Shown one piece after another: positions 21,696 to 39,658 of a DNA stretch of 64,000 nucleotides. Origin of the DNA: Actinomycetota bacterium (GTDB taxonomy: Bacteria; Actinomycetota; Actinomycetes; Propionibacteriales; Propionibacteriaceae). Made by a program: the position numbers and the translations under genes. The stretch covers positions 59,614-123,613 of the forward strand of contig JAIUOS010000009.1 of assembly GCA_020161755.1 (NCBI GenBank), written 5' to 3'. Position 1 is the first letter of the stretch. The number at the start of each line of letters is the position of its first letter. The notes under the pieces are model-generated. The model made no database searches and had not been told where the DNA came from. It worked only from the letters and a program-made list of their open reading frames with translations.

Positions 21696-21732
21696 ACCGT
21701 GCTCGGCGAGGAGAGCCGCTTAGTGTGTGAGC

Positions 21733-21954
21733 GTGCCCGATGATCAGGACTATGCGGACCTAGGCGCCCTACTCGCGGACCCTGCTCACTGGACAGATGA
21801 ACAGGCGGCAACGGCGCGGCTCGTCCGCCGGGCGCAGATCAGCGCGCTTGCGGAGGTCGATCCGAGGGATCAGAAGCGGGCTGCCGACATGGCGGTTGTT
21901 GTGAAGGAGCTCGACTCTGCGATAGCTGCCTGGGAAGCCGGTCACTCAGGCTAG
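21733..21954 (+). CDS. Small hypothetical protein
   Basis: A protein of about 73 residues starting VPDDQDYADLGALLADPAHWTDEQAATARLVRRAQISALA (GTG 21733; another GTG at 21727 adds two residues). It is rich in helix-formers and acidic residues and has no membrane segment. It starts 33 bases after the IS21 target duplication, so the insertion may have cut its promoter. Codon use and length suggest a real small gene, but no family is recognised. Confidence 0.45.
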   Translation: MPDDQDYADLGALLADPAHWTDEQAATARLVRRAQISALAEVDPRDQKRAADMAVVVKELDSAIAAWEAGHSG

Positions 21955-22183
21955 GCCCGGCTCTGTAGACGACACGCCACGACCACGCGGCGGTAGATCC
22001 GGATGTTGGGCAGTTGTTAGGCAGAGGAACTCGTGGAATCGCTGCGGACACGGCACAGGGGCGCAGTGTCCGCCCTGCACTGGCGTCCCCCCAGACACGG
22101 CCGACAGATGTCGGGATCCCGAAATCGGATCGGCTCGAATGGAGGGCGCCCCGATGCAGCCGAGGTGTCACTAGTGTGGCCGT

Positions 22184-22699: not shown

Positions 22700-22842
22700 G
22701 CAGTTGTCCACTGCTTCTTGTGAACAACCCGTGGCATCAGCTCGAGATCGGCACCCGAGGTCGGGCCGGGCGACGTCATTCGACCCGTCGGAGTCGACGA
22801 GGGCGCCATCAGCACCGCCGGACGGCGGCAGAAGCGGTTGTT

Positions 22843-23334
22843 CTAGTGGCCGCATTCAGCGCACGGCCTGGCTCTTCCGTGGGCCAGGTTGGCTAGATCG
22901 ATGACCCAGGGTTCGGCGGCACTCGGATAGAGCGGCAACACCTCGCCGTCGCCGGTGATCGAACGCCACACCACCGGCACGGGTGTTCCGTCGTTCTCCG
23001 TGAGGGTCGCCCCGGCTGTTTGCGGTGTCGGGTCGAGGCGTCCGGAGTAGAGGAAGACGATCTCGTGACCAAGGACACCGTCGAGGGTGAAGATGTTCTC
23101 GACGGTGGCGAGGAAGGCGAGGTCACCGATCGTGGCGCCCAGCTCCTCTTCGACCTCGCGCCGGATGGCGTCGCGGTGCGACTCGCCAACCTCCACCGTG
23201 CCGCCGATCAGCCGGTGATAGCCACCAGGGTTCTCAGTCGTGGGGGCGTTGAGGCTCACCGCGTGGGCAGTGTGGTCTGCATTCGGAACGATGAGCATTG
23301 CCTTGACCTGGATGACGGGGCGGTCGTTGGTCAT
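22843..23334 (-). CDS. NUDIX hydrolase
   Basis: A protein of 163 residues with the NUDIX box GGTVEVGESHRDAIRREVEEELG (Gx5Ex7REVxEExG), which binds Mg2+ and cleaves nucleoside diphosphates linked to another moiety. The length and the N-terminal MTNDRPVIQVKAMLIVP match small NUDIX hydrolases related to ADP-ribose or (d)NTP pyrophosphatases. The C-terminus ends in CAECGH, two cysteines that could bind zinc. ATG 23334 is chosen because earlier in-frame codons are basic and unlike the family. The substrate cannot be named. Confidence 0.85.
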   Translation of the reverse strand: MTNDRPVIQVKAMLIVPNADHTAHAVSLNAPTTENPGGYHRLIGGTVEVGESHRDAIRREVEEELGATIGDLAFLATVENIFTLDGVLGHEIVFLYSGRLDPTPQTAGATLTENDGTPVPVVWRSITGDGEVLPLYPSAAEPWVIDLANLAHGRARPCAECGH

Positions 23335-23436
23335 GCTGACGAACCTAGCTGGCCGACGCCGGTGCACGATGCCATCGGCGGCATGTGCGTGCGTTCACTC
23401 CTACGACTTAGCGATCATGCCCCAGCTGTCGGCAAC

Positions 23437-23923
23437 TCAGGAAAACGCCTCACGTGATGTGATGCCGTGGGGGCGCAGCTCTTCGTAGGCTTCTAGCCAT
23501 TGTTCCAGTCCCAGACTCGCCTTCAGCGCGCGTTCGAGGCGTACTGGGGCCACGATCCTTCGGTAGGGCAGGCTCGTGGCCTCTGCCTTGGTCGCTCTTC
23601 GGCGGCGCGTCCCGGAGTAGTCGACGGCCAATTGGAGTTGTGGCGACAACCTTCCAATCACCGACGTGGAGCTTCGCATCCATCGAGAGCGCCAAGAGCT
23701 TCACTGGGCCCGAGAGCAAGTCTTGGAACTTGATCGGGATCTCCTGCTCGGGGAGTACCGATTCGAAGATGGCAAAGAAGTAGGCACTCGTTCCGTAGTG
23801 CCCCACGATCTGGCCTAGCCCTGCGCGACCATCACCAAGAGGAATCGAGAAGACGTCACCATCCCGAAGCTTCACCGTCACGCCCACCCCTTCCGTACCC
23901 AAGGCTGTCGCCAGCGTAGCCAT
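23437..23923 (-). pseudogene. Imm26-like immunity protein with a frameshift
   Basis: The first frame (from about ATG 23923) encodes VTVKLRDGDVFSIPLGDGRA, GLGQIVGHYGTSAYFFAIFES and LHVGDWKVVATTPI. The family continues in another frame as VDYSGTRRRRATKAEATSLP and APVRLERALKASLGLEQW to the stop at 23437. This order matches the Imm26 immunity family of polymorphic toxin systems, which begins with a 'GDVF.IPL..G..G.GQI' strand pair and ends with 'RR.AT..E...LP.R...AP.R.E.AL'. The shift lies near 23625-23650. A sequencing error is possible. No toxin gene is next to it. Confidence 0.55.
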
Positions 23924-24146
23924 TGGGTGTGTCACAGCGGCCACCACCGAGGAGGCTGACCACGCGTGCCAGCCAGAGCGCGAGCGTCCCCCACAATGCG
24001 GCAGGAGAGTACGTTCCCGAGTGCCAAGTCTCGCTCGGTGGGGCGCCGTTGGGGCATCGCTCACGACTTGCAGGGGTCTCAGTGTCAACGGGCGCCCCGC
24101 GCGGGCGGACCGCCGAGCATGCGTCCCGAGCGATCGAGGCTAAAGC

Positions 24147-25609
24147 GGCTCTTCACAATCCAGGGTGTAGCTGAGGTCTGAACCCGCCGGTCTCGAGTAG
24201 CGATCTGGCGATGTAGTTGGTGAGGTTTCGGAAGCCGAGGGCGCTGCCGCGGAGGTGTTCGAGGCGGCCGTTGATCGCTTCGGTAGGGCCGTTGCTGGTG
24301 CCGGGCCGGTCGAAGTAGGCGAGCACGTCGGTGGCTCGCTGTTTCAGGGTTCGGCCGAGGGATCGGAGTTCGACGAGCGCGGCGGGTACGCCGCTGGCGA
24401 GGCTGGCGATCAGCTTGGTCATGAGGTCACGGCCGCGGGTGGGGTCGGGGTCGCGGTAGGCGGTGATCATTCGCTGGTATGCGGCCCAGGTGACTTCGAC
24501 GGCGACATGATCATCGCCGGCGAACAGGGCATCAAGCCGGTTCTTCTGTTTGTCGGTGAGCAGGCTCGTGCCGGTGTGCAGGGTCCGTCGGGCCGAATAG
24601 AGCGGGTCGCCGGCCCGGCCGCGGTGGCCGTGGAGGTCTTGCTGGATCCGGCGGCGGCACTTGTCGAGGGCATCGCCGGCGAGGCGGACGACGTGGAAGG
24701 GGTCCATCACCGCGACCGCGTCGGGCAGTTCTTCGGTGGTGGCGGTCTTGAAGCCGGTGAAGCCGTCCATCGCGACCACCTCGACGGCGTCTCGCCAGGC
24801 CTGGTCGCGCTCAGCCAGCCAGGTGGCGAACACGTTCTTGGAACGGCCCTCGACCATGTCGAGCAACCTGGCTGGACCGTCACCGGTGCGTGGCCCGGTC
24901 AGGTCGATGATCACGGTGACGTACTTGTCGCCGCGGCGGGTGTGGCGCCATACGTGCTCATCCACCCCGATCGTGGTGACCCCGGCGAACCGTGCCGGGT
25001 CGTTGATCAGCACCCGCTTGCCCTCGGCCAGCACCGCGTCGTTCGCCGTGTTCCACGACACCGCCAGTCCTTCGGCGATCCGGGCCACGGTGAGGTGCTG
25101 CACCACGATGCCCTCCAGCGCCCACCGCAGGCCACGCCGGGACAGCTTTGCCCTGGGCTCGGCGGCCCGGCTGGTGTCCTGGCGCCACACATGCCCGCAA
25201 CCCGTGCACCGATACCGGCGGATGGTGACCTCCAGGATCGTCGGACGCCAGCCCAGCGGCTCGTGGGCGAGCTTGCGGATCACCGTACCGACCGGGGTGC
25301 CCTGACAACCGCAGCGGCGGCACCACTCATCGGGCTCGACGACCCGGCAGGCCAGCACCGCGCTGCCCGGCTCGAGCAGCTGACCAACCACCTCCAGACC
25401 AAGCTCATCGACACGGCAGAACGTGGTCAGGTCAGGGCAAGCGAAGGTAGCGTGAGGCACGTCGAGGTCTTCCAGACGGGTTGTGTGAGAACTCCCATCA
25501 TCGGAAGACCTCGACCCTCACCCCGGCACCGACGCGCCGCCATCGATCACACCCTCGCTACACCCTCGTTTGCGATGAGCCACCAAACCACGCTGAATGA
25601 CGAAGAGCC
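24147..25609 (-). mobile_element. ISL3-family insertion sequence
   Basis: A 1,463-bp element with one transposase gene. The left tip GGCTCTTCACAATCC at 24147 and the right tip, read inward, GGCTCTTCGTCATTC at 25609 share the GGCTCTTC end typical of ISL3 elements. The 8-bp flanks (GCTAAAGC on the left, GTCATGGT on the right) do not match, so either the flank has been altered or a deletion followed insertion. The right end lies inside the truncated deoR gene. Confidence 0.82.
24153..25460 (-). CDS. ISL3-family transposase
   Basis: A 435-residue transposase. The N-terminal zinc ribbon has two CxxC pairs (CRRCGCQG and YRCTGCGHVW), followed by a helix-turn-helix (LTVARIAEGLAVSWNTANDAV). The DDE core reads VTTIGVDEHVWRHTRRGDKYVTVI, then VEVVAMDGFTGFKTATTEEL and DAVAVMDPFHVVRLA, and the C-terminus has SNGPTEAINGRLEHLRGSALGFRN, where the catalytic E lies. 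The end LHPGL falls six bases from the left tip. The gene is intact. Confidence 0.92.
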   Translation of the reverse strand: MPHATFACPDLTTFCRVDELGLEVVGQLLEPGSAVLACRVVEPDEWCRRCGCQGTPVGTVIRKLAHEPLGWRPTILEVTIRRYRCTGCGHVWRQDTSRAAEPRAKLSRRGLRWALEGIVVQHLTVARIAEGLAVSWNTANDAVLAEGKRVLINDPARFAGVTTIGVDEHVWRHTRRGDKYVTVIIDLTGPRTGDGPARLLDMVEGRSKNVFATWLAERDQAWRDAVEVVAMDGFTGFKTATTEELPDAVAVMDPFHVVRLAGDALDKCRRRIQQDLHGHRGRAGDPLYSARRTLHTGTSLLTDKQKNRLDALFAGDDHVAVEVTWAAYQRMITAYRDPDPTRGRDLMTKLIASLASGVPAALVELRSLGRTLKQRATDVLAYFDRPGTSNGPTEAINGRLEHLRGSALGFRNLTNYIARSLLETGGFRPQLHPGL

Positions 25610-25734
25610 GTCATGGTGGACACTGCGCACAGCTCGGCGAGCCGGTCCACTGTGAGCGTGCCGTTCCGGATCAACGCGTCCAGGATCGCGAGCTGTCGCT
25701 CCTTCGGCCCCTCGGGTCCGGGAACAGCCCCCAT
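25610..25734 (-). pseudogene. N-terminal fragment of a DeoR-family regulator, cut by the ISL3 element
   Basis: Read from ATG 25734, the fragment encodes GPEGPKERQLAILDALIRNG then TLTVDRLAELCAVSTMT, the recognition helix region of a DeoR helix-turn-helix. It then runs into the ISL3 tip at 25609. The sugar-binding domain is missing. AGGAGG lies upstream of the start. Because the fragment ends the catabolic locus on its 3' side, the locus once had two DeoR regulators: this broken one and the intact one at 33813. The fragment would have no ligand-binding part. Confidence 0.75.
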
Positions 25735-25890
25735 CGACCACCACCTCCTGGTGGCCATTGTCCACGGCCCCGCCTCCTGGACGTCACGGACGCGCCAGGC
25801 CCCGCGCCGCATCACTGCTGGCCGCTGGAGGGCGCGGACGGTCGACAGGGCGGCCTCCTCCTTCTTCCCGCGCGGTCGACGGCGCAGGCC

Positions 25891-26352
25891 TCACCCCTCG
25901 GTCGTGGGGGCGTCGATGGCGTCGATGGCGTCGATCATCCTGACCCGACGCTCATGACGGCCTCCGAGGAAATCCGTGCTCAGCCAGGTGCCCACGATCT
26001 CCTCCGCCAGGCCTTCCCCGACGACCCTTGCCCCCAGTGCGATCGCATTGGCGTCATTGTGCTCACGCGACATCCTGGCCGAGTAGGTGTCGGACACGAT
26101 GGCACAGCGCACACCCGGCACCTTGTTCGCGGCCATCCCGATTCCCTGTCCCGTGCCGCAGACGAGGATCGCCCGGTCAGCCACGCCTCGGGCGAGCTCG
26201 CGAGCCGCCCGCTCGCCGAAAGTGGGGTAGTCGACGCTCTCAGAGGTGTGCGTACCGACATCCTCGACGTCGTGGCCGAGTTGACGGATGTACCCCGCCA
26301 ACCCATTCTTCAGCTCCAGGCCAGCATGGTCACTGGCGACGATGATTCTCAA
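25891..26352 (-). CDS. rpiB: RpiB-family sugar-phosphate isomerase
   Basis: A 153-residue isomerase. ASDHAGLELK carries the D8-H9 pair, VCGTGQGIGMAANK the C65-GTG motif and SREHND the H98 residue, all landmarks of ribose-5-phosphate isomerase B and its LacAB/EryI relatives. The start is TTG 26352, chosen because GAGGAG lies six bases upstream; the next in-frame ATG would miss the first strand. The C-terminal tail (RRVRMIDAIDAIDAPTTEG) has a short repeat. It follows the TIM-like gene, separated by two strong hairpins, so it may be separately regulated. This copy has the classical catalytic set, unlike its neighbour at 27357, so the two probably act on different substrates. Confidence 0.88.
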   Translation of the reverse strand: MRIIVASDHAGLELKNGLAGYIRQLGHDVEDVGTHTSESVDYPTFGERAARELARGVADRAILVCGTGQGIGMAANKVPGVRCAIVSDTYSARMSREHNDANAIALGARVVGEGLAEEIVGTWLSTDFLGGRHERRVRMIDAIDAIDAPTTEG

Positions 26353-26448
26353 TGGTTGCTCCTCGGTCCGCTGTGTCCTCTGCTCCGCTGGTGCGCATCG
26401 CGACTGCGCACAGTGCCCTCGTCCGGGAACCGGGCAAGGGGCTGGGTG

Positions 26449-26497
26449 CTCGTGCCGACCGGTTCTGGGGAATGGGCCCCTGACCGGTCGGCACGAG
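26449..26497 (-). terminator. Large intercistronic stem-loop 1 (possible terminator or attenuator)
   Basis: A perfect 15-bp inverted repeat, CTCGTGCCGACCGGT (26449-26463) with ACCGGTCGGCACGAG (26483-26497), encloses a smaller GGGG/CCCC hairpin. It lies between the TIM-like gene and rpiB, 112 bases after the TIM-like stop. It could end the upstream transcript or stabilise its 3' end. Confidence 0.55.
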
Positions 26498-26500
26498 TGT

Positions 26501-26533
26501 GCCGGTCCCCGAGCGGCGCGCTCGGGGACCGGC
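26501..26533 (-). terminator. Intercistronic stem-loop 2, next to stem-loop 1
   Basis: A perfect 14-bp inverted repeat, GCCGGTCCCCGAGC (26501-26514) with GCTCGGGGACCGGC (26520-26533) and a 5-base loop. Only three bases separate it from the first hairpin. A tandem pair of this strength points to a deliberate break or processing point between two cistrons. Confidence 0.6.
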
Positions 26534-26608
26534 AAGATGTGGCGCAGCCCCACGGGGTTGGAACCCGTTCTGATGGTCTCCGTGGGACCGTGCCAGTCCT
26601 GTGTGGGG

Positions 26609-27355
26609 TCAGTGGCGACCGACCCACTCGCCGGCGATCGCCAGGATCTCGAGGTACCCTTCGGCACTCCACGCGGCACGGCCCACGAAGAGCCCCTCCA
26701 CGCCCGGGATCCCCAGGAGCTCCGCTGCGTTCCCCCGGTTCACCGACCCCCCGTAGATCACCGCGGTCACCCGATCCGCGTAGCGGTCGTGCAGGGCGTC
26801 GAACGCCCGGGCGAGGTCCTCCCGACGGGGCTCCCGTCCGTGCTCGCCGATGGCCCAGATGGGTTCGTAGGCCAGCACGACACCCGAGGTGTCGACGCCA
26901 TCGAGCGCGGAGTCGGCCTGCCCGGTGATGAACTCCACCGTGCGCCCCTCCTCGAAGACCTCCGCCGGTTCACCCACGCACAACACGGGCCGCAAACCGT
27001 GGGCGACGATCGACCGGACCTTGCGGTTCACGACCTCGTCCGTGTCCCCGAAGTACTGACGACGTTCCGAGTGCCCGACCTCAACGAGCTCAGCACCCGC
27101 ATCCGCGACCTGCGGTACGGACACCTCACCTGTCCACGCCCCCGCGTCCTCCCAGTGCGCGTTCTGCGCACCCAGAAGGATGCCCGAGTCACGTCCGAGG
27201 ACCCGGTGCACCTCGGAGAGCGCGGTGGCGGGCGGGATGATGAAGGGCTGGACACCCGACCACTGGGAGGCATCTGCCCCGACGAGCTTCTCGGCATAGT
27301 CCCTGGCCGAGGCGAGGGTCCCGTTCATCTTCCAACTGGTGCCCACCCACAGCAT
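26609..27355 (-). CDS. Triosephosphate-isomerase-like isomerase (candidate L-erythrulose-1-phosphate isomerase)
   Basis: A 248-residue TIM barrel with the catalytic set of triosephosphate isomerase: K9 in SWKMNG, H95 in VGHSERRQYFG and E164 in LAYEPIWAIG, plus the phosphate-binding YGGSVNRGNA. The first motif is GTSWKMN in place of GNWKMN; this variation marks the LerI/EryH branch, which isomerises L-erythrulose 1-phosphate to D-erythrulose 4-phosphate, and differs from housekeeping TpiA. The stop of the preceding rpiB-like gene lies one base away (TGACATG), so the two are coupled. The pairing of a LerI-like and a DerI-like enzyme is the known tetritol module in mycobacteria and rhizobia. Substrate is inferred. 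Confidence 0.78.
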   Translation of the reverse strand: MLWVGTSWKMNGTLASARDYAEKLVGADASQWSGVQPFIIPPATALSEVHRVLGRDSGILLGAQNAHWEDAGAWTGEVSVPQVADAGAELVEVGHSERRQYFGDTDEVVNRKVRSIVAHGLRPVLCVGEPAEVFEEGRTVEFITGQADSALDGVDTSGVVLAYEPIWAIGEHGREPRREDLARAFDALHDRYADRVTAVIYGGSVNRGNAAELLGIPGVEGLFVGRAAWSAEGYLEILAIAGEWVGRH

Positions 27356-27356
27356 G

Positions 27357-27812
27357 TCAGTCCTCCTCGTACTCGCAGATCGCCGCGACCTTCGGCACCG
27401 AGTGAGACTCCGGGTCGAAGGTGTAGTCGAAGAACTCCCGCGCAAGCCTGCGCGCGAGCTCGCGTCCGATCACGCGCTCCCCCATGCAGAGCACCTGGGC
27501 ATTGTTGGACAGCACCAGACGCTCGACCGAGTAGGAGTCGTGCGCTGTGCCCGCACGGATTCCCTTGACCTTGTTGGCGGCCATCGCGACACCGAGGCCG
27601 GTACCACAGATGAACACCCCCCGGTCGGCCTCCCCCGCAGCGATCATCCGCGCTGCCCGGACCGCGACGTGGGGGTAGTCGATGTCCTCCCCCTCGCCGA
27701 CTCCCGCATCCATGACCTCATCGATCCGCGGATCCTCCAACAGGTCCTTCTTGATCGTCTCCTTGTAACCGAAACCGGCGATGTCACCGGCCACGACGAC
27801 ACGAAATCCCAT
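27357..27812 (-). CDS. RpiB-like isomerase of the DerI/EryI type (candidate D-erythrulose-4-phosphate isomerase)
   Basis: A 151-residue RpiB-family protein. It has C69 in FICGTGLGVAMAANK and H91 in TAHDSY, but the first motif reads GDIAGFGYKETIK, with isoleucine where classical RpiB has histidine (D-H). The same change is typical of the EryI/DerI branch that converts D-erythrulose 4-phosphate to D-erythrose 4-phosphate. ATG 27812 is preceded by GAGGAGAGAACG. The stop overlaps the next gene's start region (TGACATG). It is the first gene of a second minus-strand operon, after a terminator hairpin at 28084-28125. Confidence 0.78.
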   Translation of the reverse strand: MGFRVVVAGDIAGFGYKETIKKDLLEDPRIDEVMDAGVGEGEDIDYPHVAVRAARMIAAGEADRGVFICGTGLGVAMAANKVKGIRAGTAHDSYSVERLVLSNNAQVLCMGERVIGRELARRLAREFFDYTFDPESHSVPKVAAICEYEED

Positions 27813-28083
27813 GACGTTCTCTCCTCTGTTCCCGGCTGCGTGCCGGGATGGTGGTGTGGATGGAGTGCTCGCACCTGCACTCCTGGCAGCGTGCGGATCC
27901 GTACGGCGCCTCAGGCACGCGCGAGAAACCGCGCCGGACGTGGGCATCTTCTGTCAGTGCGCAACTAGGTCACAAGACAGCGCCAGAGTCGGATACATTT
28001 CGACCACAAAGGCCGCCTCGCACCGATGACCGCCATCGGTTGAGCGTGATGCGCGTTCCGAGGAATCGGTCACCGGCAATGCA

Positions 28084-28125
28084 CCCGTGTGCCCCATGAA
28101 CGTTTCCGCTCTTGAGGCACACGGG
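28084..28125 (-). terminator. Hairpin terminator after the UPF0261 gene
   Basis: CCCGTGTGCC (28084-28093) pairs with GGCACACGGG (28116-28125). It lies 34 bases past the stop at 28159 and separates the RLP operon from the isomerase operon. The remaining 270 bases up to 27813 should hold the isomerase promoter; I see no convincing -10/-35 pair. Confidence 0.55.
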
Positions 28126-28158
28126 CAATCATCGACCGATTGCTCCTGTGGACTTATC

Positions 28159-29556
28159 TCAGTGTTCGTAGTCCCCGTAGGCGAGAATCCTGTCGCTGTA
28201 CGAGTCGTACCTGCCGATCTCCCACCGGTCGCTGATCATGTCCCACACGATCGTCTCCATGAGGTCAGCGAACTCCGGATCGAGGATGTGATAGTCAGTG
28301 GCGATCAGGTCAACCTTGCTCGGGTCCAGCAGCTCCTTCATGAGCTTCCACATGAGCGTTGCTCGACGAGACCATCTCGGGTACTGCTCATCGGGTTCCC
28401 ACACGGGACCGTCGCCGTTGCCCTTCGCCCATCCACGCTCCCGCGTCGCAGTCGACTCTGGTTGGTCGTAGGCGGACCATCCTCTCATCGGGATGACGAA
28501 TGCCGTCGGCCCGTTGGTCTTGTTGAGCTTTCCTGCCATGTAGTCGGAGAGCGCCGCGATCTCTTCTAGCGTCGGGACCATGATGGTCACGCCCTCGTTG
28601 TGCACGTACGGTTTGTCGGTGCCGTGGAAGCCCCGGCGCTTGCCTGTCCTGAAGTCCTCTAGGTACTCGGGGTTGAACTGGGCCATCCCGTTGTATGCGG
28701 CCTGGTCCAGTCCTCCGGGAGCAACGACCTGCGGAATGCCGATGTCGGAAGCGGCACTCATCCGTTCCCCGCCCCACGTCTTCGGTGTCCCGTAGAAGGA
28801 GTTGTACATGTTGTTCGTCAACTCGCCAGGTGTCATGTCGACCACTGCCGTGATGTCCCCCGAGCGCATAAGATCCTCCATCGTCGCGCCGACGCCGACC
28901 GCGTGGAACGTGGCGCAGTCCCAGCCGTGCTTGTCGAAGAAATCCGTGACGTGGATCTGCGTCGGAGTCGTGGTGCCGTACGACGTGACCGCGGCCAGTG
29001 GGCGAGTGGAGCCGGACTCATTCGGAACCTGGGCCATCGCAACCACGGCTGCACAGGCGTTGCTCACGATGCGGTGGGTCACCTTGTTGATCCCCTGCTC
29101 GGCTGTGGGCGAGGCGATGAAGATGTCCTTGTTACCCAGCCACATCGACACGTCTGCACTTGCCATGTCTGTGAGCATGATCTTCGGGATCCCGAAAGGC
29201 AGCGCCCGCATCACGTGAGTCACGGTTGTGGTTCCGACTGAACCCGCCCATGAGATGATGCCGTCCAGGCGCCCCTCGTCAAGCAGTTTGAGTGCCATGC
29301 GGGCACCCGCCTTGCCGACGATCTCAATGGCCTCCGATCGCGGTGCAGTGAAGACATCACTGGCCTGCGTGATTCCCGACTCCTGGAGAACGTCCTCCAC
29401 AGCGATGTCCGCGAAGGCGACCGACGCGCCGAGGGACAGGTCCATGATGAGCGGCTCACCGCCGAACATTCTGACGCGCTCGGCGAGGAACCGGATCTCA
29501 TTCCCCTTGGTGTTGCACATTCCCGTGCAGACGATGACCGGCTTCTTGTTGTCCAT
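28159..29556 (-). CDS. UPF0261 / Tm-1-like ATP-binding protein
   Basis: A 465-residue protein that reads throughout as UPF0261 (the Tm-1-like ATP-binding domain): IVCTGMCNTKGNEIRFL at the N-terminus, MDLSLGASVAFADIAVEDV, IISWAGSVGTTTVTHVMRALPFGIPK in the centre and DMTPGELTNNMYN then PQVVAPGGLDQAAYN in the second half. Tomato Tm-1 fuses this domain to a TIM barrel; here the barrel is the next upstream gene (29606). It is about 60 residues longer than most family members, with a C-terminal extension (KVDLIATDYHILDPEFADLM). ATG 29556 is preceded by AAAGGAGC. Bacterial members have no agreed reaction. As an ATP-binding enzyme beside an RLP it may act as the missing kinase or ligase; this is inference. 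Confidence 0.82.
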   Translation of the reverse strand: MDNKKPVIVCTGMCNTKGNEIRFLAERVRMFGGEPLIMDLSLGASVAFADIAVEDVLQESGITQASDVFTAPRSEAIEIVGKAGARMALKLLDEGRLDGIISWAGSVGTTTVTHVMRALPFGIPKIMLTDMASADVSMWLGNKDIFIASPTAEQGINKVTHRIVSNACAAVVAMAQVPNESGSTRPLAAVTSYGTTTPTQIHVTDFFDKHGWDCATFHAVGVGATMEDLMRSGDITAVVDMTPGELTNNMYNSFYGTPKTWGGERMSAASDIGIPQVVAPGGLDQAAYNGMAQFNPEYLEDFRTGKRRGFHGTDKPYVHNEGVTIMVPTLEEIAALSDYMAGKLNKTNGPTAFVIPMRGWSAYDQPESTATRERGWAKGNGDGPVWEPDEQYPRWSRRATLMWKLMKELLDPSKVDLIATDYHILDPEFADLMETIVWDMISDRWEIGRYDSYSDRILAYGDYEH

Positions 29557-29605
29557 ACCAGAGCTCCTTTGCTCTCATTCTCTTCTTGCAGTGGACGAGT
29601 TGCCC

Positions 29606-30439
29606 TCAGTACAGGTTGAGGGCGTTTTTGTATTCCTTGGTGATCGCAAGGACGGCCTTCTCGATCGGGACCCTCTCAGCAGCCGACCCGCCGATGAACC
29701 CATGGGCCGACGTGTTGTGCATGACATGTGCGGCCTGTCGCGGGCCCTCGATCGGTCCTCCGTGCGCGAACAGAATGATGTCCGGATTGGCAGCCAATGC
29801 AGCCTCGAACATTTCCTGGCTGCGCTCGGTCGCCTCTTCGAGAGTGATCTTCGATGCTGCCCCGGTGATCCCGCCGACGGTTGAGCCGAAATGCGTGGCG
29901 ATCGCGTGGGCGCCAGCCTCCGCGAGCACCCGGGCCTCCTCGGGTGTGAAGGCATATGCCAGAGCAAACATGTTCTCATTTGCGGCCGCCTCGACGAACT
30001 CGACTTCGCGCTTCCAGCCAATTCCGATGTTGTCCATCTGGGCGACGGTGGCATCGCCGTAGATCTTGATCATGAACGGGTTGATCCCCGAGACTCCTGC
30101 GTCACGAAGCCGGCGCAGGTGGTCCTTGTGAGGGATGAGCGGGTTGAAAGCGCCGGACAGGGACAGTATTGGCGTGTCCTTGACATTCGCCACGATCTCA
30201 GGCGCCAAGTCGAAGACAATCTGGTTGATGTCGGAGTTCGGCATGAGCGCCGCAAGCGACCCCTGTCCCTTGAGTCGCCAGTAACTGGTGCCGGAGATGA
30301 CGATCATGTCAGACCCGCCCATCTCCTGCAGCTTCGCCGTCAGGCCCGAACCGCAGTTCGGGACGAAGAGCGGTGCGCCGGTGGAGATCACCTTGCGCAG
30401 ACGGGCGACGACCTCGTCCGCACTGTATACCTTGGCCAT
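29606..30439 (-). CDS. TIM-barrel 'phosphoenolpyruvate hydrolase-like' protein (Tm-1 C-terminal half)
   Basis: A 277-residue TIM barrel, of the family annotated as phosphoenolpyruvate hydrolase or TIM-barrel signal transduction protein. Landmarks are GAPLFVPNCGSGLTAKLQEMGG at the start, SLSGAFNPLI, GVSGINPFMIKIYGDATVAQMD, AIATHFGSTVGGITGAASK and HGFIGGSAAERVPIEKAV at the end, where the phosphate-binding strand lies. ATG 30439 is chosen because AAGGAG lies six bases upstream; nine earlier residues from 30466 are all basic and unlike the family. It is the partner of the UPF0261 protein: the two are one polypeptide in plant Tm-1 and some microbes. The gap between their genes is 49 bases. Reaction unknown. 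Confidence 0.8.
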   Translation of the reverse strand: MAKVYSADEVVARLRKVISTGAPLFVPNCGSGLTAKLQEMGGSDMIVISGTSYWRLKGQGSLAALMPNSDINQIVFDLAPEIVANVKDTPILSLSGAFNPLIPHKDHLRRLRDAGVSGINPFMIKIYGDATVAQMDNIGIGWKREVEFVEAAANENMFALAYAFTPEEARVLAEAGAHAIATHFGSTVGGITGAASKITLEEATERSQEMFEAALAANPDIILFAHGGPIEGPRQAAHVMHNTSAHGFIGGSAAERVPIEKAVLAITKEYKNALNLY

Positions 30440-30484
30440 TCTTCTTCTCCTTCTAGTTGAAACCACCCTGACTCATGGAATCAG

Positions 30485-31372
30485 TCAGATCAAGCAGTAC
30501 TTGGCCAGGAATCTCCTGGCGTTCTCGTCACGTACTGCGATGACGTCTTGCGGTGTCAGCGGAGTGGGCCCGGAAGCACCTGCCGCGATTTCCCCACTCA
30601 GTTGATCGACGACCGAAATGGTCTCCGAAACTGAGTACAACGGGAAATCTGAGCCGAACAACACGTGTTCCGTACTGCCAGCCCAAGGCTTCACCACTTC
30701 CAGCAGGTTCTTCAGTGGCCAAGTTCGCGACCCAGGATCCCGACCGATAACCGAACTGATGTCTGCATAGACATTTGAGTGCTTGCGCAGGAGTCCGGCA
30801 ACGGTGGAGAAATCGATCCGGCCCGCGTGCCCGAGGACCATCGGAAGTTCAGGGAAGTCACAGGCAATCTCATCGAAGCGGGTGGCCCGCGTGTACGTAT
30901 CCGTACAGGGCAGGACTCCGATGTCCCCGGAATGAAACAGAATTGGAAGCCGATGAGCCTCCATGAACTCGTAGATTGGCCATAGCCGGCGATCGTCCAC
31001 ATCGATCTCCTGCATGGCGCCGTGGATCTTGAGGCCTTGGGCACCGCTGTCCTCGACCTCGGATCGGAGGATCTCCGTCGCTCGCTCTGAGCGCGGGTTC
31101 ACGGCACAGAACCGAACGAGGCGATCGGGGGCCAGAGCAACCTGCGACGCTACATAGCTGTTGATGGCGGAGACTTCCTGATCGTCAAGGTCTGGTGAAG
31201 GCACGAGCGCAACTGCGATCGCCTTGTCGATGCCCGACCGATCCATACTGGCCAACAGACGCTCCGTACCGGACTCGACGCTGCTGCCTCCACCACGACC
31301 AGACGAATAGTCGCGGATGAACCGGGGGACCCCCGATCCGGCCCACAAGTGTGTGTGGACATCAACCCTCAT
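30485..31372 (-). CDS. Amidohydrolase_2-family metal-dependent hydrolase
   Basis: A 295-residue protein. The metal ligands of the amidohydrolase fold are visible: H6 and H8 in MRVDVHTHLWAGSG, a Lys in GLKIHG, His in ILFHSGDIG and GHAGRIDFS, and Asp in VLFGSDFPLY. The family includes lactonases, decarboxylases (ACMSD-like) and hydrolases acting on carboxylated substrates. The start is set at ATG 31372, one base after the RLP stop (TGACATG), which implies translational coupling. In this operon it may open a lactone ring or decarboxylate an acid before the RLP step. The substrate is unknown. Confidence 0.82.
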   Translation of the reverse strand: MRVDVHTHLWAGSGVPRFIRDYSSGRGGGSSVESGTERLLASMDRSGIDKAIAVALVPSPDLDDQEVSAINSYVASQVALAPDRLVRFCAVNPRSERATEILRSEVEDSGAQGLKIHGAMQEIDVDDRRLWPIYEFMEAHRLPILFHSGDIGVLPCTDTYTRATRFDEIACDFPELPMVLGHAGRIDFSTVAGLLRKHSNVYADISSVIGRDPGSRTWPLKNLLEVVKPWAGSTEHVLFGSDFPLYSVSETISVVDQLSGEIAAGASGPTPLTPQDVIAVRDENARRFLAKYCLI

Positions 31373-31373
31373 G

Positions 31374-32684
31374 TCAGTCACCGACCTTCCGGTACCCGAA
31401 TGCGGCCAGGGCCTGAGACAGCTCGCAATGCTCAGAGGCGTATGCGTCGGTTGGCACGCCAAGTTTCCACGCCTCGATCGCCTGCATCATGGCTCTGATT
31501 CCCGCTGCAGGCCCATCCGGGTGCCCCTGGACGGCACCACCCGGAGCGAGCACGATGTCATCGCCCAGTTCGCTCAAGTAGCGCTCAACCACGCCAGGAT
31601 GGACCCCGCCACCTATCACCGGCATCGAGGCGCGCAGCCCTGGCGTGTGCAGCCCGAGGCGATGGGTGATGTCGAGGTAGCTGGAACGACGGATCGGGTA
31701 ACCACCGTAGGGCGTGTTGATGACGGCCAGGTCTGCGCCAGCCAGGCGTGGGAAGAACCCTGCAGCCAGGCCCGCGCTCATACCGCTCTGCGGTCCCTCG
31801 TAGTAGGAGTTCGAGCCGGCGTAGTGGCCGAGAACCGGAACTCCCGCGTTTGCCGCGACCTCAGCCAGCATGCCGTAGCCAACGGATCCGTAGGCGACCA
31901 TGACGGCCTTGGCGCCGGCGTCCACAGCCCTGCGCGCGTTGTCCAGGAGCCTGCCACCTTGCGCAGTGATGTTGGGGACGTACACGGTTCGGTGCCCGGT
32001 CTCCGCCTCAGCGCGTGACGCCGCGGCCTCATAGGCGGTGACCCTCTCAACGAGAGGCGAGAAGGTCGGGTCACCCATCAGTTCGTCATCCTTGATGAGG
32101 TCGACGCCGCCCAGGGCTGTGCGGTAGAAGATCTCGGATCCCTGTTCAGGCGTGATGCCGGTGCAGGGCTTGATCATGTTCAGCACGAGTGGGCGGTCCC
32201 AGACGCCAGTCAGCTCGCGAACGCCGTCAATGCCGAACCGCGGACCGCCGAAGGATGCCGCGAAATCATCGGGAAGCTGGACGTCGACCAGCTTGCACTG
32301 CATCGAGGTCGACGCGTCGTTGCCGAGGATAGTGGTGAGCATCTGTGCGATGTCCGATCCGAAGTTCGTCGTGGGCACGGCAAGCGAGATGACGTAACCG
32401 ACTTGGTCTGGCACCTGCGGCCCCAGGTCAACAGCCGGGCACGAGATGATCGACACGACCCTGGTCTGGTAGGCGCGGCGCATTTCCTTCGTGATGCCTG
32501 GGACTTCGACCCATGTGCCCAAGGACTGGCCGACCGCAAAACGCTCCGCCAGTCGGCTGACATCTGTTTCGGCGGGCAACTCGACGCAGTAGGTTGCGAT
32601 GAGATCCCGCTCCAGACGCGCTTGGGGCGGAAGCACGTACATCCCCTCCGACCTGAGCACTGCGTTCGTCGAGCCTGACAACAT
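31374..32684 (-). CDS. RuBisCO-like protein (form IV), candidate 3-oxo-isoapionate-4-phosphate-type decarboxylase
   Basis: A 436-residue RuBisCO large-subunit homologue. The metal and carbamylation residues are kept: K172 in MIKPCTGITPE (RuBisCO K175), K198-D200-E201 in VDLIKDDELMGDP (K201, D203, E204) and H287 in GHYAG (H294). The phosphate-site loop GGGVHPG and the GDDIVLAPGGAVQGHPDG motif are present. Loop 6 has no lysine equivalent to K334 (it reads FFPRLAGAD), so it cannot be a carbon-fixing RuBisCO. ATG 32684 is preceded by CTGGAGGTTCCA; an earlier ATG at 32756 adds 24 residues absent from the family. It begins the operon with the amidohydrolase, TIM-barrel and UPF0261 genes. Known sugar-acid RLPs (OiaX, OiaT) decarboxylate or hydrolyse 3-oxo-isoapionate 4-phosphate; that role is inferred here. 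Confidence 0.85.
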   Translation of the reverse strand: MLSGSTNAVLRSEGMYVLPPQARLERDLIATYCVELPAETDVSRLAERFAVGQSLGTWVEVPGITKEMRRAYQTRVVSIISCPAVDLGPQVPDQVGYVISLAVPTTNFGSDIAQMLTTILGNDASTSMQCKLVDVQLPDDFAASFGGPRFGIDGVRELTGVWDRPLVLNMIKPCTGITPEQGSEIFYRTALGGVDLIKDDELMGDPTFSPLVERVTAYEAAASRAEAETGHRTVYVPNITAQGGRLLDNARRAVDAGAKAVMVAYGSVGYGMLAEVAANAGVPVLGHYAGSNSYYEGPQSGMSAGLAAGFFPRLAGADLAVINTPYGGYPIRRSSYLDITHRLGLHTPGLRASMPVIGGGVHPGVVERYLSELGDDIVLAPGGAVQGHPDGPAAGIRAMMQAIEAWKLGVPTDAYASEHCELSQALAAFGYRKVGD

Positions 32685-32761
32685 TGGAACCTCCAGCACA
32701 AGATGGCCGACACCGCCGTCACTAGCAACGACCGTCGGAAGGACTTCCCTCAACACAGACG

Positions 32762-32784
32762 ATCATAGACATCACATCTATGAT
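32762..32784. promoter_or_regulatory. Operator dyad in the RLP/DUF1097 divergent promoter
   Basis: ATCATAGA-N7-TCTATGAT is a perfect 8-bp inverted repeat (32762-32769 with 32777-32784), 78 bases upstream of the RLP start. Its AT-rich arms stand out in GC-rich DNA. It is a good candidate site for the DeoR protein encoded at 33813. Confidence 0.6.
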
Positions 32785-32947
32785 GTTGCAAGTACCAGAT
32801 CATCTGCGACTCGATGCCAGCACATCCGCCCCCCCACGACTCTATATCCGCAGGTCAACAGCAACTTAACGATCTCTCACCCTCATTCGTCTCCACTCTC
32901 GGCGCTGAGCATTCGTCCTTCGGACCCACCGTATCGTCACAGTTTGG

Positions 32948-32977
32948 TTGACACTTAGATCACGCATGGCGTTAACT
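32948..32977 (+). promoter_or_regulatory. Promoter of the DUF1097 gene
   Basis: TTGACA at 32948-32953 and TTAACT at 32972-32977 are separated by 18 bases, a good match to the housekeeping sigma consensus, 36 bases before the DUF1097 start. The spacer contains TAGATCAC, which recurs at 33773-33780 in front of the DeoR gene. Confidence 0.55.
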
Positions 32978-33013
32978 GTGAGCCACCAGATACCTGTCAA
33001 CGAAGGAGTTGTC

Positions 33014-33607
33014 ATGAGAACCAAAGAGCGCATGCCCAACTGGCTGGCGGTCGCCATCTCGGTGATGGTCAGTCTTCCGTTCGGACTGTGGCTGGGCGAC
33101 TACAGCCTCCCGCTGTGGATCGCCTTCATCGTCTGGGCCGAGTACTTCATGTTCGGCAGCAATCTCCACGGACTCCGCACACTGATCCCCGCATTCGCGT
33201 TCGGCATCGTCATGGCCGCCGCAGTGCAGAGCTTCGCCACGCTCTTGACCAGTGTCTTCGGGGATGCACACCTCGTGTCCGCGGGTGACCTCGCCACAGC
33301 GGTCTCCTACTTCATCGGCTTCGGCGTCGCCGTGTTCCTGATGGACTACATCGAGGTCCTCAGGAGCGGTACGCTCGCCTACTTCCAAGGGATTGCCATC
33401 ACGCTAGCCGCGATCTTCACCGGGCAAGGTGCCGGCTACGTCGGTCACTCCTCCAATGCGTATGTGCTTCTGATCGGCTCGGTGATCGCCACAGCGCTGG
33501 CCTGCCTGCTCGGCTCGTTCATTGGGTGGCTGAATGTCACTCTGAACGGCGCCGTGAAGGCGGTTGCGCCCGAGACAACCGGCTCCGAACAGCGCATCAT
33601 GCCTTAG
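33014..33607 (+). CDS. DUF1097 integral membrane protein
   Basis: A 197-residue protein with about six hydrophobic segments, including WLAVAISVMVSLPFGLWLG, LWIAFIVWAEYFMFGS, LIPAFAFGIVMAAAVQSFA, ATAVSYFIGFGVAVFLM, LAYFQGIAITLAAIFTG and LLIGSVIATALACLLGSFIG. This matches the DUF1097 family. ATG 33014 is preceded by AAGGAG. Members occur beside catabolic genes and are suspected to help transport, but none has an agreed substrate. Here it is divergent from the RLP operon and shares its control region, and no ABC or MFS transporter gene is nearby. It is the best candidate for uptake of the pathway substrate in this window, by context only. Confidence 0.78.
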   Translation: MRTKERMPNWLAVAISVMVSLPFGLWLGDYSLPLWIAFIVWAEYFMFGSNLHGLRTLIPAFAFGIVMAAAVQSFATLLTSVFGDAHLVSAGDLATAVSYFIGFGVAVFLMDYIEVLRSGTLAYFQGIAITLAAIFTGQGAGYVGHSSNAYVLLIGSVIATALACLLGSFIGWLNVTLNGAVKAVAPETTGSEQRIMP

Positions 33608-33620
33608 GGGCTCATCCGAT

Positions 33621-33663
33621 GCAGGCGGTGCCCACGCACCATAATGCTGTGGGCGCCGCCTGC
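33621..33663 (+). terminator. Terminator after the DUF1097 gene
   Basis: GCAGGCGGTGCCCAC (33621-33635) pairs with GTGGGCGCCGCCTGC (33649-33663), one G-T pair in 15. It starts 14 bases after the stop codon, so the DeoR gene that follows has its own promoter. Confidence 0.7.
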
Positions 33664-33812
33664 TGCCCCCTGAAGTTGGGCACATGGTCGGGCAAAAGAC
33701 ATGTGCATCATCGGTCGTCACTGCGACAGCTGACGTGTGATGTGAGTCCTGTAAGGTTGTGCTTTAGGCAGCTAGATCACACTACGCTGACTCGACAACA
33801 CGGGAGGCCGAT

Positions 33813-34793
33813 GTGGACAACGTCGAGGACAACAGCTCACCAGCCGCCCTCGTCGAGGGCAGGACTCGGGATCGGAACCAGACCGACGCGATGGTCGGAA
33901 AGGACCAGATCGACGTGAGTCTCACTGGCGCTGCGACTCCCGTCACCCACGGTCAGGACCACGCCGGACCACTGCGGCTGGAGGAACGCCAGGACGCGAT
34001 CGTTGAGCTGGTCCTCTCCGCGGGTTCCATCCGGATCGACGACATCGTTGAGCAGTTCAGCGTGTCACGCATGACGATCCACCGCGATCTCGATGCCCTG
34101 GAAGCGCGTGGGATCCTCCGGAAGTCGCGTGGCACAGTCACCGCGGTGGCCTCAAGCCTCTTCGAGGCTTCCACGGACTATCGCATCCGACAGTCCATCG
34201 TTGAGAAGCAGGCCATCGCTCGCGCCGCGTTCGATCTGGTCGAGCCCGGGCAGGCGATCGTCCTCGACGACTCGACGACAGGATTGCAACTTGCCAAACT
34301 TCTGGTCCAGAAGGCTCCCCTCACCGTAATCACGAACTTCAATCGTGTCATCACCGAGCTCAAGGGGAAGCCCGGCATCTCGCTCCTCTCAACTGGCGGC
34401 GAGTACTACGAACTGTGCGACGCCTACAAGGGTCCGATCGCACTCAACGCGCTCGGACAACTTCGGACCGACATCTACTTCATGTCCACCCCTGCCATCA
34501 CGGGGGGTATCTGCTATCACCAGCACCCGGAACTTGTCCTCATCAAGCAGGCCATGCTCAAGTGCGCGCAGAAGAAGGTGCTCATCGCGGACCACACGAA
34601 GTTCAGGAAGCGAGCCCTTCACGCCATGTGCACCATCAGCGACTTCGATCTCGCCATAGTCGACTCGGGAACGAGCCCGGAGGAGTTGGGGATGCTCAAG
34701 CGTGCGGACCTCGAGGTGAAGGTCGCGCCGTTGAGGACAGGGCTTCATCGCAGAGCAGACCTCATGATTGACTCCGAGACGAGGGATCACTGA
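33813..34793 (+). CDS. DeoR-family transcriptional regulator of the RLP locus
   Basis: A 326-residue regulator. The DeoR helix-turn-helix lies at about residues 57-110: LEERQDAIVELVLSAGSIRI and then VEQFSVSRMTIHRDLDALEARG. The sugar-phosphate-binding DeoRC domain follows, with VLDDSTTGLQLAKLL, STGGEYYELCDAYKGP and VLIADHTKFRKRALHAM, the motif that binds a phosphorylated sugar. The protein has an unusual 55-residue acidic, disordered N-terminal extension. GTG 33813 is preceded by GGGAGG five bases upstream, which supports it; the family is normally about 255 residues. It likely represses the RLP and isomerase operons until a pathway sugar phosphate binds. Confidence 0.85.
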   Translation: MDNVEDNSSPAALVEGRTRDRNQTDAMVGKDQIDVSLTGAATPVTHGQDHAGPLRLEERQDAIVELVLSAGSIRIDDIVEQFSVSRMTIHRDLDALEARGILRKSRGTVTAVASSLFEASTDYRIRQSIVEKQAIARAAFDLVEPGQAIVLDDSTTGLQLAKLLVQKAPLTVITNFNRVITELKGKPGISLLSTGGEYYELCDAYKGPIALNALGQLRTDIYFMSTPAITGGICYHQHPELVLIKQAMLKCAQKKVLIADHTKFRKRALHAMCTISDFDLAIVDSGTSPEELGMLKRADLEVKVAPLRTGLHRRADLMIDSETRDH

Positions 34794-34806: not shown

Positions 34807-35013
34807 ATGGCGACACCGGCACGAGTCGTCCTGCTGGGAACGGCCGGAGGATCGATCACTTGGGCGCCTGGAACTGGCGGTGCCGTGGCCCGCTTTGGAA
34901 TCTCCACGGCCATCGTCGTTGGCGATCGCCGTCCCGATCACTGTCGCTGCACTAGTTACCGTGCGCCCTGGACAAGCCGCCCCGCGCTCTTGGCTACGGC
35001 ACCTCTTGCCTAA
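34807..35013 (+). pseudogene. N-terminal fragment of an MBL-fold hydrolase
   Basis: ATG 34807, with AGGGCAGGA upstream, starts RVVLLGTAGGSITWAPGTGG, and then FGISTAIVVGDRR. This is the first strand pair of RNase Z/arylsulfatase-type MBL hydrolases ('VVLLGT.GGP......STAVVVGD..YLVDCG'). The sequence then loses all similarity (from about 34935) and runs to a stop at 35013 without the HxHxDH metal site. It starts 14 bases after the DeoR stop, so the full gene was probably the last member of the regulator transcript and has been lost by a deletion that joined the locus to the next genes. Confidence 0.55.
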
Positions 35014-36068
35014 TGGGTCACTTCGAAGGCAGGTGGCGTGAGGAGGATGCGCCAGGGACCGTTTGGCTTCTTGCGGGCACGAACCACTCCAACTCGTTGA
35101 GGTATCTCGACGACACGCCGTGCGCCTGATTCGTCGAACACCCCGGTTCTTTCGGCAGCGCCACTTGGCGCCGCCTGTAGGAGCCGGCCTCCCCTCGACT
35201 TCAGCCGTCGACAGTCCTCTGCCGTAGGGATGGGCGAGACGAGTGACGTGAAGGGCGCTACGAGCATGGCGGCGTCTGGCGCGACGAGCCGACTCCACAT
35301 TCCTTCGTGATGAGCACCTGAACTGCCGTGATGCGGCACCTTGATGACCTGAGCCGGCTGGAGGCTCTGATGCCTAGCGTCGGCCAGAATCGCGGACCAG
35401 CCAAACTGGGCCGGGGCCGATTCCACGTCACCACTCAGCAGCACCGACGAGCCGTAGGCTGCAATGTGCAGAGCGACACTGCAGCGGTTGTCTCCTCGCA
35501 ACTGGCTCTTGATGGGACCCTTTCCCAAGGCGGCTCGCTCCGCCAACTCACCGCACGACGCAGCGACCGCTTGATCGGATGGTGACAGTGCACGTACGCG
35601 CACGCTGCCCGCGTCCAGCATCGACAGCCCCACTTTCAGCGGAACGAGGCCCGCCACGAACGGACCGAGAACTCTCCGTCCAGCGCGGTGCAGCGCCGAC
35701 ATGATCGGGTCGCCTTTCGGATCCAGCTTCGCCCACGCCCGCACAAATTGATCATCCCGCATGGCCGCCGTCACCCACAGCTGCGCCTCGGTGTAGCGAT
35801 CGTGCAGGTGATCGAGGCCACGGTAGTGGTCACGGTGGAAGTGCGTTACAACAAGATGCTTGACGGCGGATCCGGGAACCTGCATCCGATCCAGGTAGCT
35901 CTCCGCTGCCGGTCTAGCGCGTCCGCCCCGCTCGGGACTGAAAGCCATGAAGCTGTCGACGACCATCCAATTTCCGTTGCCATAGTGAACCAGGCAACTC
36001 TCGCCAACGCCTCGACCTAGCAGCGTCACTTCCAGTTCGTCGAATGCTGGCTTGGAGGCGTCACTCAT
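35010..36068 (-). CDS. ComEC-like metallo-beta-lactamase-fold protein of a defence-like pair
   Basis: A 352-residue soluble MBL-fold protein. The metal site is VVTHFHRDHYRGLDHL (H76, H78, D80, H81), with LLSGDVES providing the bridging Asp and KVPHHGSSGAHHEGM the later His. The order matches the MBL domain of ComEC/Rec2 proteins but the membrane part is absent. The start ATG 36068 lies inside the end of the upstream PRTase gene (overlap 36061-36068), so the two are coupled. Stand-alone ComEC-like MBL proteins occur beside conflict-system genes; here the partner is a PRTase-like protein. A nuclease or phosphodiesterase activity is likely. Role inferred. Confidence 0.75.
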   Translation of the reverse strand: MSDASKPAFDELEVTLLGRGVGESCLVHYGNGNWMVVDSFMAFSPERGGRARPAAESYLDRMQVPGSAVKHLVVTHFHRDHYRGLDHLHDRYTEAQLWVTAAMRDDQFVRAWAKLDPKGDPIMSALHRAGRRVLGPFVAGLVPLKVGLSMLDAGSVRVRALSPSDQAVAASCGELAERAALGKGPIKSQLRGDNRCSVALHIAAYGSSVLLSGDVESAPAQFGWSAILADARHQSLQPAQVIKVPHHGSSGAHHEGMWSRLVAPDAAMLVAPFTSLVSPIPTAEDCRRLKSRGGRLLQAAPSGAAERTGVFDESGARRVVEIPQRVGVVRARKKPNGPWRILLTPPAFEVTH

Positions 36069-37984
36069 CTCCGAATGTCTTCAGCAACTGCGCCGCCACA
36101 AGCTCCGTGGTTTCAGGCGACACATCATCGGGCAGCACGTGCACTCGCGATGCCACCAGCCGATTCCCTTCCTCGATTCGCGTGAACACAGTCCAGACTA
36201 TCTCGGCGTCCGGCGCTAGGGCGCCAAAGTCATTGGGGTCGATGACTTCCCATTGAAGATCGAATAGGCCCGCGTCGACTCCGTCGAGCGTCCGGAGTTG
36301 TGCAGTAAGGAACTCGTTCGGAGTCGAATCGATGACAGAACCGAGATATCGGCGCTCTGAGCGTCCCGGGAGTGCGCCACGGATAAACCTGTCGAGCGCC
36401 TTCTCCAGATCGCGTCTGCGCAACTTCCGGCGACCTGGCGCCCTACCAATGACTTCCGGAAGATCGCCCGCGCTGTGCACCGCCGACTGGAGCGGATAGC
36501 CACGATAGAGGCATGCCGTGAAGTCATCGAATGTCTTCTCGCTCCACTGCCCTTCACCGAGCGGCACCGACGCGAATACGGACGTCTCGCCGAGCCGGAA
36601 GCACCGATACACCACCCCTCGCACCTCGTCAACCCGGATGATCGGCACCACGATCCCGAGGTCATTACCGATGTCCAACGCGAGCGTGATTGCAGCACTC
36701 GACCACTCATCGTCCGGCTCCCCGGTCAAAGCCATCAGGTCCGCAAGCTCCTCGAGGGTGAAACCCGACGACAGGACCCTTGCGTTTCCTTCCCGACCGA
36801 CGGTGCGACGGTAGTCACTGATCCTGTGAAGGCTGGCAAGCTTCTTCCGTTGCGGCTTCTCGTATCGTTCGCCGATGTACCCGAAGATCGACGTGACTGC
36901 ATGAGCAAAGGCAAGGCCGACCTTGGTCACCTCGCCTTCAGCCGGACGTCCAGGAACATCCGTCCGGGCGATAAGCTCCTGCTGCTCCCACATGAGGCGT
37001 TGAATGTCCGGCATCGAAAGCAGCTCATAGGGACGCGGGCGATCAAGCACGAGCGGAGTGAGCGTCGCCGGCTCATGGGCCTTGTTAGCCACCCCGCGCA
37101 GCACCTCCACGACGTGGGACAGGTGGTCCAGCGCCGGCCCGAAGTTCAGCCGCAGCGTCTCCTCGTCGATAACCGTTCCGACCGTCGGCACGACGCCCGG
37201 CTCGAGGGCCTGGACACGCAACAAGAAGTATCTGGAAAGCAGATACTGAAGGAGGCGATACTTCGTCTCAGCACCCAGGGAGAGGAGCCAGTTGGCCGTG
37301 TCGCCCCGCACCCCGAGACTGCACAAGTCTCCCAAAAGCGCGTCGATGCTCTCGAGAGCCACGGGCTTGATCAGGCAAATCGGCACCAACCGCGCCGCAA
37401 CACCGAACTGGGTTTCTGAGACGTACGCCCTGAGCTTCCCCAACTCGACAATCTCGGTAAGGCTTGCGGGCAGGCCGCCGAAGAGCTCACGTTGATGAAC
37501 TGCACTGGGAACCTTGGCGAGCGCTGTCCTTTCACAATCCTCAAGCAATGGTGCCGTTACGTCGGCGACTCGCCACCCGTCAGCCTGCACGAATTCAAGC
37601 CAGTCGCCCTTAGTACACTCAAATGCCAGACCAACCGGAAAATCAGTGAAGAGTGGACGGCCGTTCCGGTAAAGAACGCGAATGACGTCCTTGGAGAACT
37701 GCTCGATCGTGGCCGTATCTGCCTCGATGAGCGCGCTGGCGTGGGCGGACGCCAGAAGATACGGCGCCATCTGCTCACGGTCACTGCAAACTGCGCGCGT
37801 CTTCCAAGTCCGTGCGCCGGCGCTCCTCAGCGTATCGGTGATGCCCGCGAGCGTTGAGCCGAAAATGATGTTGTCGTCAAGAACAAGCACCCGGTCCCAC
37901 TCCCAATCCTGCACAAGATCGATGGCACGACTACTGAATACGTCGGCGCCGGTCAAGGGCGGAAGGCCGTTATCGAGGAGCACC
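36061..37984 (-). pseudogene. Phosphoribosyltransferase-like conflict-system protein, 5'-truncated by an IS21 end
   Basis: The frame runs for 640 residues from GTG 37983, but the IS21-type tip TGTCAATGG begins at 37985, so the real start is gone. The first visible domain is PRTase-like: DRVLVLDDNIIFGSTLAGIT holds the 'VLVLDD..T.G.T' PRPP-binding motif (D, D, G-S-T), which would sit after the missing first strands. The remaining 500 residues are helical and beta-rich without other known motifs (one stretch RRKLRRRDLEKALDRFIRGA is strongly basic). It overlaps the MBL gene by eight bases. The layout fits a two-gene defence or conflict module, which this insertion has probably disabled. The family name is a best guess. 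Confidence 0.6.
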
Positions 37985-39623: not shown

Positions 39624-39658
39624 GGTCCATCCTCCCAAGAGAATCGGAACCAAACCCA

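Follow-up and report, generated by a model that had tools for sequence, protein, structure and literature searches.

The window analysed here is a stretch of 64,000 nucleotides from an Actinomycetota bacterium of the family Propionibacteriaceae (GenBank assembly GCA_020161755.1, contig JAIUOS010000009.1, positions 59,614 to 123,613 of the forward strand). Between positions 25,610 and 34,793 it carries nine genes around one for a RuBisCO-like protein (RLP). The first of two minus-strand units encodes the RLP (31374..32756; RuBisCO_large 139.5 bits, N domain 34.7), an Amidohydro_2 enzyme whose metal-site motifs HxH, H, H, D are all intact (30485..31372; 125.7 bits), a PEP_hydrolase TIM barrel (29606..30439; 243.7 bits) and a UPF0261 protein (28159..29556). 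For the latter both domains, PF06792 and PF23189 (N- and C-terminal), score clearly above the cut-off of 27 (134.6 and 146.9 bits). The second unit comprises a first RpiB family isomerase (27357..27812), a LerI-like protein of the triose isomerase family (TIM; 26609..27355; 228.8 bits) and a second RpiB family isomerase (25891..26352), whose TTG start is preceded by GAGGAG; the two RpiB genes match LacAB_rpiB with 146.2 and 186.2 bits. Divergently transcribed on the plus strand are a DUF1097 membrane protein, possibly a transporter (32948..33607; 39.3 bits), and a DeoR family protein (33813..34793; DeoRC 146.5 bits), the likely local regulator. All nine genes pass the curated Pfam cut-offs, which bears out the gene order given in a preliminary description of this DNA made from its letters alone. 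Several open reading frames had been listed with starts lying too early; these were corrected to positions near 27355 (TIM), near 27812 (first RpiB), 26352 (second RpiB, TTG), near 30439 (PEP_hydrolase) and near 31372 (amidohydrolase). With the starts reset, the genes of the first unit are separated by 1 base (RLP/amidohydrolase), 45 bases (amidohydrolase/PEP_hydrolase) and 49 bases (PEP_hydrolase/UPF0261). A gap of 346 bases follows up to the first RpiB gene, then 1 base between first RpiB and TIM and 256 bases between TIM and second RpiB.

For the comparison of gene neighbourhoods the best 80 of at least 569 confirmed RLP relatives were chosen and the window was added (n = 81); genes were called and clustered, and the clusters were named by Pfam searches with their representatives. 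RLP, amidohydrolase, PEP_hydrolase and UPF0261 genes all occur within 8 kb in 12 of the 81 loci, ten of them in exactly the order of the window, so the grouping is more than chance. The locus is thus a real and repeated combination. The preliminary description had not recognised in it a described pathway, and no description was found in the literature searched; it is best regarded as a new variant of RLP-based catabolism. Four main layouts can be distinguished. The first is that of the window, with a DeoR gene in 12/12 and a DUF1097 gene in 6/12 loci. The second is composed of a ribose-type ABC transporter, a metallo-beta-lactamase (MBL)-fold protein, UPF0261, a class II aldolase, a GntR regulator and the RLP. 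In the third a Gat-type phosphotransferase system (PTS) is found, in most cases beside the class II aldolase and accompanied by RpiB, by TIM or by the two of them, and the fourth consists of actinobacterial loci with FGGY kinases. Further arrangements were seen as well. In Syntrophomonas and related organisms (loci L070, L074, L075 and L080) the order is RLP, PEP_hydrolase, a member of the 2-phosphosulpholactate phosphatase family, UPF0261 and a second PEP_hydrolase, and the RLPs keep the loop-6 lysine. L069 and L072 (Pseudomonadota/Deltaproteobacteria) have two PEP_hydrolase genes before the RLP with a gene of about 600 codons between, and UPF0261 is not adjacent. Anion transporter and arylsulfotransferase-family genes lie upstream of the RLP unit in L020, L021 and L025.

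By its scores, tree position and motifs the RLP is a member of a lineage separate from both OiaX and MtnW (2,3-diketo-5-methylthiopentyl-1-phosphate enolase). It reaches 201 bits with the NCBIfam equivalog for OiaX (NF042437, cut-off 700), and 243 and 290 bits with the MtnW models TIGR03332 (cut-off 513.6) and NF007095 (cut-off 409). The RLP tree comprised 49 sequences, the R. rubrum, R. palustris and C. tepidum (Chlorobium-type) kinds not being among them. In it the 24 sequences of the near clade around the window are supported with 100/99, and OiaX forms another group with haloarchaeal and rhizobial RLPs (97/99). A placement of OiaX inside the clade of the window is rejected with p = 9.9e-7 in the approximately unbiased test, the groups for which were defined with knowledge of a first quick tree. 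The assignment of the RLP to the OiaX type in the preliminary description can therefore not be upheld, the more so as the loop-6 lysine is absent. That description had also named clustering with MtnW as the outcome that would speak against it; in that form it was not observed, as MtnW forms a long branch of its own that lies beyond the near clade, albeit on its side of the tree. Methionine-salvage genes are absent from the nine genes of the window and present in L093 and L098. The lineage was seen in Actinomycetota, Bacillota and Chloroflexota, its deeper relatives extend to the archaea, and database names for its members are MtnW or just a RuBisCO-like domain name. It is sparsely distributed near the source organism: among 29 genomes of the same genus one RLP with 54% identity and two with 40-42% were detected, ten more genomes giving matches of 30-37% only. 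Within the class only one of 394 genomes, the source genome itself, gave a match of E 1e-80. In the tree alignment the sibling with 54% identity has the same sequence as L019, a metagenome bin of the Propionibacteriaceae, so that the genus would belong to this family.

The functional meaning of the motif positions is presumably that known from RuBisCO work. The window RLP has kept the metal site KDDE, the GTW and GG stretches of the phosphate site and the IKP lysine, and thus the features of the RuBisCO superfamily (metal-site K-x-D-E and phosphate-site glycines). Loop 6 reads GGYP, as against SKYW, VKYW and GKFW in three OiaX or OiaX-like sequences. Its lysine is kept in the OiaX sequences and missing in those of MtnW, in the window RLP and in 73 of the 81 family members; the eight that have it are all deep relatives (L069, L070, L072, L074, L075, L078, L080 and L081). 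None of the 81 has the arginine that follows the catalytic histidine. In the region of the phosphate site GGGVHPG of the window RLP compares with SAGIHPG in MtnW and SGQW in OiaX, and the best solved relative is an MtnW (2oek, 230 bits). The absence of the loop-6 lysine speaks against a decarboxylation. A doubtful but serious alternative is accordingly that the RLP acts as an enolase or as a carbonyl-shifting isomerase, in the manner of MtnW or of the R. rubrum RLP, any loss of carbon being left to the amidohydrolase or the PEP_hydrolase barrel. The motifs nearer to MtnW than to OiaX and the position on MtnW's side of the tree are in keeping with it, and so are the PTS-type loci, which would supply a sugar or polyol phosphate with no carboxylate to lose. 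Likeness in motifs does not fix the reaction, however, and the two isomerases encoded downstream are the same pair that accompanies oiaX, the gene of a decarboxylase (PMC6302742).

This pair would lead to erythrose 4-phosphate and constitutes the best-supported step of the pathway proposed below. LerI and DerI convert L-erythrulose 1-phosphate to erythrose 4-phosphate (PMC10733421). The window TIM shows 49% identity to the one that Rhizobium etli p42f encodes in its oiaX–kinase–TIM–RpiB operon, and 34% to the triose isomerase of the genome from which the window comes. Together with the R. etli and Roseibium TIMs it forms one clade (100/99), from which the genome's own triose isomerase stands apart. 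Among solved structures it matches an L-erythrulose-1-phosphate isomerase best (11ef, 228 bits, compared with 155 for the best triose isomerase), so that it is nearer to LerI than to triose isomerases. The LerI/DerI-type module of the preliminary description is hence supported, and of the two RpiB proteins the first is the better DerI candidate. TIM and RpiB both lie within 8 kb of the RLP in 28 of the 81 loci, and either one in 45. The TIMs of the clostridial loci form a branch of their own, and those of the actinobacterial FGGY loci stand far off, with about 30% identity to the R. etli TIM. No TIM is encoded in the stretches available for L002 and L014, the two nearest RLP relatives of the window in the tree (10 kb on both sides of the RLP in L014). 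Since the window TIM groups with that of R. etli rather than with the clostridial ones, and since L002 and L014 are without it, the pair seems to have been joined to the RLP independently and more than once. That the pairing recurs is the strongest indication that the RLP, like OiaX, would end in L-erythrulose 1-phosphate. Several observations weigh against this assignment: with the DerI model NF051858 the RpiBs score 140.8 and 122.9 bits and neither passes the cut-off of 240, the NCBIfam name for the TIM is triose isomerase (316 bits against a cut-off of 293), the TIM is a long branch in its tree, neither gene is found within 8 kb in 36/81 loci, and for L002 only 3.6 kb on one side were available.

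The shared exit might also suggest an OiaX-like route for D-apionate in which parts have been replaced; we consider this quite improbable. As in the D-apiose/D-apionate pathway of R. etli p42f (L110, oiaX–DUF1537 kinase–TIM–RpiB), RLP, kinase, TIM and RpiB would stand together. In addition, the MBL-fold proteins of the ABC-type loci, 21/21 of which fall in one cluster, are homologous to the MBL-fold protein encoded next to oiaX in Agrobacterium (E values from 6e-18 to 1e-6 within a small set). The window RLP, in contrast, is from another lineage outside the OiaX clade and without the loop-6 lysine. An amidohydrolase and a PEP_hydrolase barrel are additionally present, UPF0261 stands for the DUF1537 kinase, and Pfam searches with the nine genes gave no oxidoreductase in the two units, whereas two are encoded in the R. 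etli oiaX operon stretch. In the oiaX and oiaX-like loci examined the DUF1537 kinase gene adjoins the RLP gene in L092, L095 and L110 and lies about 6.6 kb off in L091. A query with a DUF1537 kinase found no match among the called genes of the window, confirming the lack of an OiaK-type kinase that had been described.

Which enzyme could provide the phosphate was approached by comparing UPF0261 with the Gat-type PTS and the FGGY kinases as phosphorylation devices within 8 kb of the RLP. UPF0261 alone is present in 38 of the 81 loci, PTS/FGGY alone in 31, both in one and neither in 11. For loci with at least 4 kb on both flanks (n = 56) the respective numbers are 29, 23, 1 and 3. Ten held-out loci, which contain no copies of the first 80, gave UPF0261 alone in two, PTS/FGGY alone in four, both in none and no device in four. 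One of the held-out loci, L112, encodes the RLP together with a zinc alcohol dehydrogenase and two HAD phosphatases and has none of the tested devices. A structural match to the window UPF0261 is PDB 9mpy, the UPF0261 protein Saro_1862 of Novosphingobium aromaticivorans, with acetovanillone bound. In this organism the single-component kinase MarK starts the breakdown of acetovanillone, according to PMC13101465. Displacement counts and structure, with Saro_1862 probably being MarK, make UPF0261 the likely kinase in OiaK's place. We predict it to be the ATP-dependent kinase of the pathway.

Against this prediction stand the single locus with two kinds of device (L061), the loci without any tested device (11/81 and 4/10 held-out) and the statistics. 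In the kinship-corrected test 11 independent pairs gave on average 4.5 opposite, 0 same and 6.5 without difference (median p 0.125), and the well-flanked loci gave p 0.0625 with 8 pairs, so the mutual exclusion keeps its direction and is not significant. Moreover, the identity of Saro_1862 with MarK is one that we infer. Saro_1862 shares 24% identity with the window UPF0261 over the aligned residues, and its bound ligand is a phenol. It is conceivable, if unlikely, that UPF0261 and the PEP_hydrolase protein catalyse another ATP-dependent reaction and that the kinase is encoded elsewhere. In 6/6 plasmid stretches of about 14.8 kb each (picked from 30 of 230 records) the pair is present and no RLP is annotated, which means that the reaction it catalyses is not confined to this pathway. 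The four held-out loci without any of the three devices fit this explanation too, as does the lack of a sugar kinase among the 10 flanking genes of three of them. Yet in ABC-transporter loci such as L036 and L042 there is no other candidate kinase between the transporter genes and the RLP, and a UPF0261 protein does bind a compound on which a known kinase from the same species acts. We therefore retain UPF0261 as the predicted kinase. The role in activation that the preliminary description had given to the UPF0261/TIM-barrel pair and the amidohydrolase is thereby likely for UPF0261; the amidohydrolase may be a lactonase, a hydrolase or a decarboxylase.

Taken together, we propose with a probability of about 50% that the locus is a catabolic cluster in which a UPF0261 kinase, an RLP forming L-erythrulose 1-phosphate and LerI- and DerI-like isomerases lead to erythrose 4-phosphate, a central metabolite. 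An incoming sugar-like compound would be opened or trimmed by the amidohydrolase. UPF0261 would then phosphorylate it with ATP, at the position held by the DUF1537 kinase OiaK in oiaX operons, as family and displacement pattern suggest. The RLP, with its Lys/Asp/Glu metal site, might form an enediolate and from it L-erythrulose 1-phosphate, preferably by decarboxylation of a C5 3-oxo acid 4-phosphate and as second choice by a shift of the carbonyl group. Finally, TIM would yield D-erythrulose 4-phosphate and one of the RpiBs D-erythrose 4-phosphate. The PEP_hydrolase barrel presumably acts together with UPF0261, and a lyase step is our guess from its fold.

Plant Tm-1 is a fusion of UPF0261 (N-terminal half) with a PEP_hydrolase/TBST barrel (C-terminal half), and in tomato it has been studied as an inhibitor of virus replication (PMC5028733). 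In the window the counterparts are split, bacterial and part of a catabolic-looking cluster. A wider reading is offered tentatively: a widespread RLP lineage without a name would be joined to the LerI/DerI exit and receive its phosphate from a PTS, an FGGY kinase or UPF0261, as available. In the Tm-1-type branch UPF0261 and PEP_hydrolase would form a kinase–lyase module, and plant Tm-1 would have descended from such a catabolic pair. If the proposal is true, the RLP lineage of Actinomycetota, Bacillota and Chloroflexota gains a function, and the two halves of Tm-1 change from an orphan pair to a testable kinase and barrel enzyme. Furthermore, the rescue of an E. coli requiring erythrose 4-phosphate would be a single predicted readout with which the substrate could be screened for.

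Transposase genes of the IS110, DDE_Tnp_1_4 and ISL3 families (Pfam) were found on both sides of the locus at 16153-25460 and 38389-39653, and an IS3-like pair, recognized by reading of the open reading frames, flanks it as well, which places the locus in a mobile or rearranged region. Beyond the DeoR gene, at 35010-37983 on the minus strand, lies a two-gene unit in which a gene for an MBL-fold protein overlaps by 8 bases with one for a protein of 640 amino acids. The latter has no Pfam or PADLOC match, its MBL partner matches RTasMBL and LmuA weakly in PADLOC (E ~1e-7), and the two could be a defence-type pair.

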